Origin: a virus
Virus record (IMG/VR): IMGVR_UViG_3300025669_000095
Coordinates: 1-38,173 of that record
Strand: one strand, 5' to 3'
Length of the DNA stretch: 38,173 nt
Of this stretch, positions 18,212 through 20,885 are shown in pieces. Positions within the stretch are counted from its first letter, which is position 1. Every line of letters starts with the position of its first letter. The notes below the pieces were generated by a model. It saw only the letters and a program-made list of their open reading frames with translations. It was not told the DNA's origin and ran no database searches. The translations under genes and the position numbers were made by a program.

Positions 18212-19723
18212 ATGAAAAAAATATTATTTGGAAAGGAAGCAAAAGAAAGTTTGCAAGAAGGTGTAAATCTTATAAATGATAGTGTGAAATTTACACTTGG
18301 GTCACAAGGTAGAAATGTTATGTTAGACAGAGGTATTGCCTCTTACATAACTAACGACGGTATTACAATTAGCAGAGATGTAATGTCTAACAACCCAGCT
18401 GCTGAATTAGCAATTAAAACTATTAGAGAAGCAAGTGCTAAAACAAATGAAGAAGTAGGAGACGCAACAACTACCTCAATCTTACTTGCTAGTGAAATAT
18501 TTAATCAAGGACTTAACTACGAAAACCCAGTTCAACTTGCAAAGGAAATAAAAGAAGCCTTAGTAAAAGTAGTTAAGAAATTAAAAGAACTTGCTATACC
18601 AATTCAAGATAGCGACTTACTTAAAATAGCAACAGTATCAGCCAAAGACGAAGTGATAGGTAAGATAGTATCAGACACTGTAAGAGAGGTTGGGAAAGAC
18701 GGTATCATAACTGTTGAAAGAAACCCAAAGAACTGTATAGAAAAAGAAATAGTTAATGGACTACAAATTGAAAGTGGTTATATCTCTCCTTACTTTATGA
18801 CAGATATGTCTAAGCAAAAAGCAGAGTTAGTAGACGCTAGTATCCTTTTAACAAATCACAAGATAATTAGTTTACAAGCCATTGCTCCTATATTAGAAAA
18901 AATGATAGGAACAGGATCTAATACAATATTTATAATAGCAGACGATGTTGAGGATGTTGTTTTAAGAGATTTAATTGAAAACAAACTTAAAGGAATATTA
19001 AAAGTTATAGTAGCTAAACTTCCTAAATATAGAAAAGATATTTTTGAAGATATAGCAAAGATAACTGGTGCTACAATTATTGATAAAGAAGCTGGAATGA
19101 GATTAGAAGAAGCTGAACTTAAAGACTTGGGTTTTGCTAATAAGATTGAAAGTTATAAGAATAGAACAATCATCGTAGACGGTAAAGGAGATAAGATTGA
19201 ACTAACAAAATACATTTCTACACTAAACACTTCTATTGAAAATATTAAAGACGAACTTGAAAAAGATAGAATCAAAAATAGAGTAGCTAAATTATTAGGA
19301 GGAATAGCAGTAATTAAAGTTGGAGCTACAACAGAGATAGAACAAAACTCCCTTAAAGATAAAGTTGACGACGCTATTAGAGCCACACAATCAGCTATGG
19401 AAGAGGGTATTGTAGGTGGTGGTGGAATTGCCTTACTTAGATGTATGTTATATGACAAAAAAACAGATGGAGAAAAAGTATTAAATAAAGCTTTAGAAAA
19501 ACCATTAAATCAAATATTAGAAAACAGTGGAGCAAACTGTGATGTATGTGTTACTGGGTGAGAAGGCTTTAACGCTAATAATGGTAAAGTAGAAGACTTA
19601 CTTGAAGCGGGTATAATAGATCCTGTTAAAGTTGTAAGAGTAGCCTTAGAAAACGCAGTATCAGTTGCCACCCTATTACTTACCACAGAGGTTGTAATAG
19701 CAAACGAACTTGACAAAAAGTAA
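18212..19723 (+). CDS. groEL: GroEL-like group I chaperonin
   Basis: A 503-aa protein homologous to 60-kDa chaperonins over its whole length: SQGRNVMLD and NDGITISRD, the ATP site [13 protein letters not shown] (Asp kept; the usual GDGTTT has Gly, here Ala), an apical domain, [17 protein letters not shown] with VDDAIRATQ (catalytic Asp), [14 protein letters not shown], and [20 protein letters not shown] near the end. TGA at 19559-19561 is in-frame (VTGW-EGFNA). The Gly-Met tail of cellular GroEL is missing. No GroES gene is visible, so it may use the host co-chaperonin or none. It probably folds capsid or other phage proteins. Confidence 0.93.
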
Positions 19724-19738
19724 AAAGTGTGTTAGTAT
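19710..19738 (+). promoter_or_regulatory. promoter of the RNA locus (inside the chaperonin 3' end)
   Basis: TTGACA (19710-19715), a 17-base spacer and TAGTAT (19733-19738). It overlaps the last codons of the chaperonin gene and fires into a 600-base gene-free region. Confidence 0.8.
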
Positions 19739-19820
19739 AATAATGAGTCTAGACATAGACGATGTCCAGATGTGGACAAGGAGAACCCTACCTAAGAATT
19801 ACAAGTGGGAAACTTTAAAG

Positions 19821-20066
19821 TTAAACCTTATTAAAATGGAGTGGGTCATAGATGTCCTTATAAGGCGGATAGCTGAGTCTAGTAGAGTGTGAAGGTGCCA
19901 TCCTGCATCTAAAACAACGGTCAGCCATTAGTAGACGAAGGTCTATTGATATGAGTACTGGTAAACCTTGTTAAAATTGTATGGGTTTTAAAGGCATAAA
20001 CAAGGCGGTTATATGGAACTAGATACTGTGAAACATTCCACCCTGCGTGGAGTAACAGACCATATA
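19821..20066 (+). ncRNA. tandemly duplicated structured RNA with covariation
   Basis: Two ~107-base units (19821-19928 and 19961-20066) align with shared blocks (TAAACCTT, TTAAAAT, AAGGCGG, CTAG, GTGAA, CCTGC). Stem 1 is CCTTAT/ATAAGG in copy A and CCTTGT/ACAAGG in copy B, with identical 34-base spacing. Stem 2 is ATAGCTGA/TCAGCCAT in A (one mismatch) and TATATGG/CCATATA in B, with 44 and 43 bases between arms. A small hairpin lies inside stem 2. Between the units is TAGAC-GAAG-GTCTA. I know no matching family. The transcript probably begins near 19745. Confidence 0.65.
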
Positions 20067-20070
20067 TATG

Positions 20071-20129
20071 GTTCGTATTGTGTGAATAACACTCCAGACG
20101 TGGCATAGGTGAAATTCCTATTACGAACC
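20071..20129 (+). ncRNA. tRNA-like cloverleaf with a truncated anticodon arm
   Basis: Acceptor GTTCGTA/TACGAAC (7 bp, perfect), D-like stem GTGT/ACAC, a stunted CCA-GACG-TGG in place of the anticodon arm, and T stem ATAGG/CCTAT with a 7-base loop TGAAATT. Only about 59 bases and no usable anticodon. It lies five bases before the tRNA with anticodon CAT and could be a tRNA mimic or a degenerate tRNA. Confidence 0.6.
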
Positions 20130-20134
20130 TCCTT

Positions 20135-20205
20135 TGGACTGTAGAGAAGTAGTATCTCGTGAGGCTCATAACCTTAAGACATTGGTGCAATTCCAATCGG
20201 TCCAA
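20135..20205 (+). tRNA. tRNA with anticodon CAT (Met, or Ile if modified), unusual
   Basis: Acceptor TGGACTG/CGGTCCA (one G-T), D stem GAGA/TCTC, anticodon stem TGAGG/CCTTA with loop CTCATAA, T stem ATTGG/CCAAT. The D loop (AGTAGTA) lacks the GG pair and the T loop is TGCAATT instead of TTCxAxx, so the usual D-T loop contact seems lost, as in mitochondrial-type tRNAs. No encoded CCA. Confidence 0.65.
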
Positions 20206-20211
20206 CATCTA

Positions 20212-20240
20212 TTGACAAAATAACAAAAGTATGGTATAGT
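20212..20240 (+). promoter_or_regulatory. promoter of a ~50-base transcript
   Basis: TTGACA (20212-20217), a 17-base spacer and TATAGT (20235-20240). A terminator follows at 20273, so the product would be a very short RNA beginning near 20247. Confidence 0.75.
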
Positions 20241-20272
20241 ATAGATATGTTTTTCATAATAACAATCCAAAC

Positions 20273-20294
20273 AAGCCACGAAAGTGGTTTTTTT
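20273..20294 (+). terminator. intrinsic terminator with GAAA tetraloop
   Basis: AAGCCAC-GAAA-GTGGTTT stem (one G-T pair) followed by a T-run. It separates the RNA locus from the lysis operon promoter three bases later. Confidence 0.82.
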
Positions 20295-20296
20295 GG

Positions 20297-20325
20297 TTGA
20301 CAAATAAACTAAAATGACTTATAAT
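20297..20325 (+). promoter_or_regulatory. perfect consensus promoter of the lysis region
   Basis: TTGACA (20297-20302), a 17-base spacer and TATAAT (20320-20325). The ATG at 20332 lies at the expected start of transcription, so the mRNA may be leaderless. Confidence 0.85.
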
Positions 20326-20331
20326 AATAAT

Positions 20332-20772
20332 ATGAAGTTCTTAAAAACTTTAATAGTAAGTGTATTAGTATTCTTGGTTTTGTATCAAGGTGCAACTGCT
20401 ATTGACTATATGATTTCTGGAAAGCAACTAGCAATAGAGAATCAAATTGCACAAGTCGCTGCTAAGTATAAATTTAAAAATGTAAATTTCTTAATTAAGT
20501 TAGCAGACATTGAAAGTGGTTTAGATCCTAATATAAAAGTGTTAGATACAAACAACAGATACTCGTATGGGTTATTGAATTTCCAAATGGAAACTTACAC
20601 AAGTTTATGTGTAGATAGATATGGAATAGATACAGATATTTATTCATTAGAAAACCAAGTTGAATGTTATATAAAAATTCACCAAGATTTAGGTGAAAAC
20701 TTTATTACTGGAACAGGCGGTTGGTACAACTCATCAATTAAAATAAATCGTGTTTGAGGGTTGACACCATAA
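20332..20772 (+). CDS. exported lytic transglycosylase-like protein (SLT/lysozyme fold)
   Basis: A 146-aa protein from the ATG at 20332; the upstream in-frame ATG at 20314 lies inside the promoter and is rejected. An N-terminal signal sequence or anchor (LKTLIVSVLVFLVLY) is followed by the catalytic-type segment IKLADIESGLDPN (Glu61) and YSYGLLNFQ, typical of soluble lytic transglycosylases. TGA as Trp near the end (NRVW-GLTP). It likely cleaves peptidoglycan glycan strands at lysis, next to a peptidase-type endolysin and holin. Its end overlaps the next promoter. Confidence 0.72.
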
Positions 20773-20789
20773 ACTTTATTTGATACAAT
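20761..20789 (+). promoter_or_regulatory. promoter of a small RNA
   Basis: TTGACA (20761-20766) inside the transglycosylase stop region, a 17-base spacer and TACAAT (20784-20789). It transcribes a ~90-base region that ends in a terminator. Confidence 0.8.
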
Positions 20790-20795
20790 ATATAT

Positions 20796-20885
20796 GAGCG
20801 TAAAGGTATTCTGGTTCCGACTGGGGTACTCTTGAAAGCTCACAATTCAGTTATTTTAGAGGGGGTCATCGCCCCTTCTTTTTTT
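20796..20885 (+). ncRNA. putative ~90-base small RNA
   Basis: Bounded by the promoter at 20761 and the terminator hairpin at 20859. Internal pairing includes GAGC (about 20796) with GCTC (about 20838) and GGTA/TAC inside. A possible 21-residue recoded ORF (ATG at 20794) covers the same bases, so a leaderless micro-peptide is an alternative. No family recognised. Confidence 0.5.
20859..20885 (+). terminator. intrinsic terminator
   Basis: AGGGG/CCCCT stem with a 7-base loop, extended by a G-T pair, followed by a T-rich tract. Confidence 0.78.

Follow-up and report, generated by a model that had tools for sequence, protein, structure and literature searches.

Two noncoding copies of a 106-nt element at 19821-20066 of this phage genome look as though selection has kept a common RNA fold in them. 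The window, a virus record analyzed over its whole length of 38,173 bases, comes from a virus of bacteria (phage), and the two units lie in it between a promoter-like site and a pair of tRNA elements. We judge the chances to be about even that the units form a phage-encoded, tRNA-linked structured noncoding RNA with two paralogous domains, which is freed by host tRNA processing and acts in trans. The main features of the locus are as follows.

18212-19723: GroEL gene, upstream of the duplicated RNA region
19710-19738, plus strand: predicted sigma-70-like promoter, TTGACA-N17-TAGTAT (consensus scan, 10/12)
19747-19778, plus strand: two leader hairpins, GUCUA-gaca-UAGAC and UGUCCA-gaug-UGGACA (probability 0.99 and 0.95 in the 389-nt fold)
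19821-19926, plus strand: unit 1, 106 nt, homologous to unit 2
19927-19950, plus strand: inter-unit 10-bp hairpin, AUUAGUAGAC-gaag-GUCUAUUGAU (probability 0.93)
19961-20066, plus strand: unit 2, 106 nt, homologous to unit 1
20070-20129, plus strand: tRNA-like element (acceptor and T-arm scan)
20135-20206, plus strand: tRNA-Met (CAU), CCA not encoded (ARAGORN; Rfam 59.7 bits)
20273-20290, plus strand: intrinsic-terminator-like hairpin and T run, the first downstream on this strand (scan)

Other genes near the RNA locus include a lysozyme-like frame, an HNH nuclease, a papain-like/peptidoglycan-binding protein and a GpA-type terminase.

Duplication and shared fold of the two units

The original prediction described tandem units of about 107 bases. 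Two diverged copies are indeed present, but each is 106 nt long and their starts lie 140 nt apart. The units align without gaps over 106 columns with 50 differences (53% identity), and are most alike over a core (19822-19907 versus 19962-20047) of ~62% identity. Their local alignment score is 54, as opposed to a mean of 19.9 (sd 3.1) and a maximum of 41 in 2000 dinucleotide shuffles, and the alignment confirms the units as a real direct duplication that appears old and diverged. Five blocks, TAAACCTTRTTAAAAT, TGGGT, AAGGCGG, CTAG and CCTGC, are kept at fixed spacing in both units. No third copy was seen within the window.

Both units follow one plan, a hairpin (S1) and then a stem (S3) that encloses a second hairpin (S2).

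19826-31/19860-65, plus strand: unit 1, S1
19872-76/19921-25, plus strand: unit 1, S3
19893-98/19905-10, plus strand: unit 1, S2
19966-72/19999-20005, plus strand: unit 2, S1
20010-16/20060-66, plus strand: unit 2, S3
20035-41/20047-53, plus strand: unit 2, S2
20026-29/20055-58, plus strand: unit 2, extra helix CUGU/ACAG

It had been claimed that two stems change on both sides while still pairing, and this holds only in part. S1 keeps the same register in both units, CCUUAU/AUAAGG in unit 1 and CCUUGUU/AACAAGG in unit 2, and has one double-changed pair, A-U to G-C (19830/19861 versus 19970/20001), but its other five pairs are invariant. S2 is AGGUGC/GCAUCU in unit 1 and AUUCCAC/GUGGAGU in unit 2, and since its registers differ between the aligned units, S2 is not clean covariation in this alignment. 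The helix that comparison of the units supports best is S3, GCUGA/UCAGC in unit 1 versus the 7-bp UAUAUGG/CCAUAUA in unit 2. When GCUGA/UCAGC is set against UAUGG/CCAUA, with a one-base register shift, three of the five pairs are double-changed and none is G-U; a joint helix of this quality arises in 1.1% of column shuffles.

The joint base-pair probability summed over changed pairs is 6.93, a value reached by 0 of 600 column shuffles, in 3 of 1000 neutral simulations and in 1 of 1000 permutations that redistribute the substituted letters over the changed sites, for a comparison of two copies in one genome, where n=2 cannot pass an R-scape-style test. The compensatory-change signature that was first proposed therefore beats chance, but it comes mainly from S3, the helix that the prediction did not include. 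When the units were folded alone, base-pair probabilities for S1, S3 and S2 were 0.36, 0.84 and 0.75 in unit 1 and 0.88, 0.90 and 0.91 in unit 2, and the minimum-energy fold of unit 2 alone is S1 followed by S3 enclosing S2, with S1 one pair shorter. Built from just unit 2, a covariance model recovers unit 1 at 29.6 bits, as the next-best match in the window. A contact between the S1 and S2 loops is possible in both units, where GGGU can meet ACCC or AUCC with a G-C to G-U change (a weak match, found by eye).

In local folding energy the region does not stand out from the genome, and in a nested fold of the full 389 nt the helices of the units have low, mostly near-zero probability. Because this nested fold prefers other pairs and the energies are ordinary, the proposed structure would require that the domains fold independently or co-transcriptionally, or that pseudoknots or partners take part, and what argues for it is the comparison of the copies, not energy. 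The joint-fold test scores about equally high on the reverse complement, and the strand is thus assigned from the promoter and the tRNA elements nearby.

Promoter and tRNA context of the proposed RNA

The original prediction also gave the element its own promoter and placed it directly upstream of tRNA-like elements, and the locus agrees on both counts: the promoter-like site precedes the leader hairpins, and unit 2 is followed by the tRNA-like element and then by tRNA-Met. The tRNA-like element combines a fully paired 8-bp acceptor stem (GGUUCGUA/UACGAACC), a 5-bp T-arm with a 7-nt loop (AUAGG-UGAAAUU-CCUAU) and a small D-like hairpin, and its anticodon arm is reduced to a 3-bp stub, CCA-GACG-UGG. 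A standard anticodon arm (5-bp stem, 7-nt loop) is absent from 20070-20129, and ARAGORN makes no call there. A strict acceptor and T-arm scan of the window matches only this element and the two true tRNAs; the same scan over 1.83 Mb of other loci gave two other matches, probably by chance. Tested as tRNAs, units 1 and 2 have no RF00005 match and yield only poor cloverleafs with ARAGORN at a lowered threshold. The tmRNA, tRNA-intron and mitochondrial-type ARAGORN modes report tRNA-Met only, and a tmRNA was found neither by tmRNA model match nor by ARAGORN call. Alternatively, CCAUAUA, which forms the 3' side of S3 in unit 2, can pair with the acceptor start ACCAUAUAUAUGGU of the tRNA-like element, and in a fold of 19961-20133 S3 and the tRNA-like fold are both near 0.6. 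Because of this alternative pairing, S3 and the tRNA-like fold may form jointly.

The transcription, processing, stability and trans action that we infer for this RNA would run as follows. A single transcript would start near 19745 and carry, in order, the two leader hairpins, domain 1, the spacer hairpin, domain 2, the tRNA-like element and tRNA-Met. Host RNase P would cut at the 5' side of the tRNA-like element, near 20069/20070, and at that of the tRNA, and a two-domain RNA of ~325 nt with a defined 3' end would be released. By analogy with GOLLD, ROOL and T4 RNA C/D, the released RNA would act in trans during infection. Our guess is that it serves as a decoy for, or helps to take over, the translation or RNA-processing machinery of the host, because the same transcript would carry a tRNA as well as a tRNA mimic.

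We favor a noncoding RNA because of the duplication, the compensated changes, the double changes in S3 and the tendency of each unit, strong in unit 2, toward the common plan when folded alone. The same reading is drawn from a regional GC content (0.41) nearer that of the tRNAs (0.43 and 0.47) than that of the genome (0.32), from the lack of a gene-like frame, and from the dedicated promoter-like site and in-line tRNA elements. It is further suggested by the large phage RNAs found near tRNA islands (PMC12286853) and by a similar layout in the phage record MG269973. Against it stand the lack of a homologue in the collections searched, a nested fold that prefers other pairs and the ordinary energies.

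In MG269973, minus strand 8213-7958, a promoter-like site is found with an unannotated, strongly folded RNA (z -3.25) which GTACGGCCTG/CAGGCCGTAC closes; an anticodon-less tRNA-like element with an encoded CCA follows this RNA immediately. The sequence of the MG269973 RNA is unrelated to the units, so that the likeness is one of layout only, and a search for its sequence relatives gave chance-level matches only. If true, the parallel of a structured RNA and an anticodon-less tRNA mimic would make this layout recurrent in the phage group. The tRNA-like element of MG269973 carries G3-U70 and A73 together with its encoded CCA, which we take to be the alanine identity set, and in this Saccharibacteria phage the element may mimic a tRNA that accepts alanine.

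Alternative readings of the region

TGA is frequent in-frame in the phage genes. Among the TGA positions aligned to related phages, tryptophan is found at 23 of 49 and glycine at 2 of 49; on this alignment UGA is tryptophan in the phage genes, and on the same counts a reading of TGA as glycine was dropped. The phage also uses TGG alongside TGA for tryptophan, no tRNA with a UCA anticodon was found in the window despite this code, and the nearest relatives of the phage show little or no sign of in-frame TGA use. With TGA read as tryptophan, the leader and unit 1 could be protein-coding and unit 2 a broken copy.

19743-19928, plus strand: leaderless frame of 62 codons (ATG 19743, stop 19929, TGA as Trp)

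The ATG of this frame follows the -10-like hexamer by 4 nt, an arrangement also seen for the small frame behind the 20761 promoter, and the translations of the two units in the frame are alike (BLOSUM 47), but a minus-strand frame gives equally high similarity between the units. Moreover, the codon usage of the frame is below that of every gene window of the phage, its third-position GC is 0.48 versus 0.21, the differences between the units are spread flat over the codon positions (14/17/19) and unit 2 has a TAA in frame. Both tblastn and Pfam were empty, and the best PHROGs match has an E of 0.22. A frame with gene-like codon usage was found on neither strand of the RNA region, where the longest minus-strand frame crosses tRNA-Met. 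Coding through both copies had been named at the outset as a result that would count against an RNA; by these measures the region does not look coding, and we regard a protein here as highly improbable.

The units could instead be a cis-acting leader that modifies RNA polymerase, as in HK022 put-like antitermination, or that otherwise governs whether transcription continues into the tRNAs and, past the terminators at 20273 and 20858, into the lysis-type genes. HK022 likewise has two related two-stem RNA copies in one phage, putL, just past the promoter PL, and putR, which have sequence in common (PMC9378689), and the present units are two related two-helix elements just past a promoter with terminators downstream. 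Such a leader seems unlikely to us, however, as the units do not have the put form of ~70 nt with two stem-loops, one per operon in two operons: they are 106 nt long with a large S1 loop (26-28 nt) and a branched second stem (S3/S2), and both are on one transcript. An Rfam match is also lacking, and the downstream genes have near-perfect promoters of their own (20297, 20761 and 20900), so that read-through is not needed. A dying tRNA/RNA array, with the duplication and the tRNA-like element as functionless leftovers, would account for tandem copies, a tRNA-like element without an anticodon and the lack of homologues; yet decay would be expected to leave neither compensated changes nor an acceptor of 8 bp and a T-arm of 5 bp without mismatch, and the units have no tRNA score even at E up to 10, which makes decay quite unlikely. 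We think it very unlikely that the region acts as DNA, in the form of two protein-binding, packaging or replication sites near the terminase. Conserved blocks with fixed spacing and the score of the reverse complement, about as good in the joint-fold test, would suit such sites, whereas a long-range S3 with compensated changes needs a folding strand, and the location between a promoter and a tRNA also speaks against them.

Relatives, known systems and the phage

That the element matches no known RNA class was part of the original prediction, and this is upheld by Rfam. At the gathering level cmscan finds the tRNA only and leaves units 1 and 2 without a match, and at E up to 10 on 19680-20330 it adds weak matches that lie outside the units. 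Glycine riboswitch, T-box, twister, group I intron and CRISPR tracrRNA were weighed by eye and set aside, with no support from the Rfam scan. The proposed covariance-model search of Rfam and metagenomes, run in part, gave no further member. Tight motif scans, which reach close matches only, covered IMG/VR and 84,980 prokaryote genomes with DNA patterns from the conserved blocks (four over IMG/VR, one over the GTDB genomes); their matches were read by eye as chance, and no remaining candidate exceeds 15.9 bits (E 0.59) by RNA model. By blastn, INPHARED gave only tRNA-Met matches and marginal matches elsewhere, and PLSDB gave no match.

Among named phages, the capsid protein is closest to those of the Saccharibacteria (TM7) phage DolZOral124_53_65 (MG269973; 32% identity) and MW202566, and the major capsid alignment led to 63 related phages from IMG/VR. 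The GroEL and lysozyme-like protein baits found no relatives in IMG/VR; the TerL bait found one 4-kb relative, and TerL is common to five related records. No such RNA is present in the stretches upstream of TerL in related records L034 and L035, or beside the tRNA-Met of related record L032. Across 32 virus records, either relatives or controls, covariance models of the copies detected no additional member, and RNA models over ~1.2 Mb of related-phage sequence found nothing convincing. In the collections searched, which may lack records very near the window, and within the reach of these scans (close matches), the RNA thus appears to be an orphan known from one virus, and it is not established as a new family, a status that the prediction tied to further hits with covariation.

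The RNA is most likely of the phage tRNA-locus noncoding kind and is not a GOLLD or ROOL member. Large unrelated phage RNAs occur near tRNA islands (PMC12286853). GOLLD is phage-encoded, noncoding and structured, adjoins tRNAs including tRNA-Met and is of unknown function, and ROOL, a phage or prophage RNA near tRNA islands, has many pseudoknots and likewise no known function (PMC12286853). With its neighboring tRNA-Met the present RNA also sits at a phage tRNA locus. Another mark of GOLLD and ROOL is a homo-oligomeric RNA cage. However, many GOLLD members exceed 800 nt and have a conserved 3' region, and ROOL has its own conserved sequence and structure, whereas the present RNA has two small paralogous domains that the GOLLD and ROOL Rfam models leave unmatched, both at the gathering level and at E up to 10. 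T4 RNA C and RNA D, small stable non-tRNA RNAs inside the T4 tRNA cluster transcript, resemble it by general description as RNAs within a phage tRNA transcript; to our knowledge no description presents them as paralogues that share one fold. The RNAs of type III toxin-antitoxin systems (ToxI type) are short, tandem structured repeats; in contrast, the present units are 106 nt long and are followed by a tRNA rather than a toxin gene.

We tentatively raise the possibility, although we doubt it, that this is the first of a new phage RNA class, in which tandem small, possibly pseudoknotted domains would be released by a built-in tRNA mimic without an anticodon, from a lineage that reads UGA as tryptophan and is related to one attributed to Saccharibacteria. 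Large structured RNAs such as GOLLD and ROOL have repeatedly come from phage tRNA loci, and a small, duplicated, modular RNA would be simpler than these to synthesize, probe and test. With the paralogue pair, one genome supplies its own structural comparison, and the tRNA mimic that lacks an anticodon points to a processing route that can be tested.

In related phage record L003 (2314-4008), a long insertion with intein-like sequence splits the matched halves of the terminase. Downstream of the RNA locus, a promoter-like site at 20761 (11/12) is followed by a well-folded stretch of ~90 nt (z -3.24) and a terminator, within 20761-20880; this stretch belongs to no Rfam family and has a possible 21-codon leaderless frame. 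Within 20212-20290, another promoter-like site (11/12) has a terminator only ~35 nt behind it and could give an RNA of ~50 nt. At the near-consensus promoters at 19710, 20212, 20297 and 20761, an ATG lies 4-6 nt past the -10 hexamer, and leaderless mRNAs may perhaps be widespread in this phage.
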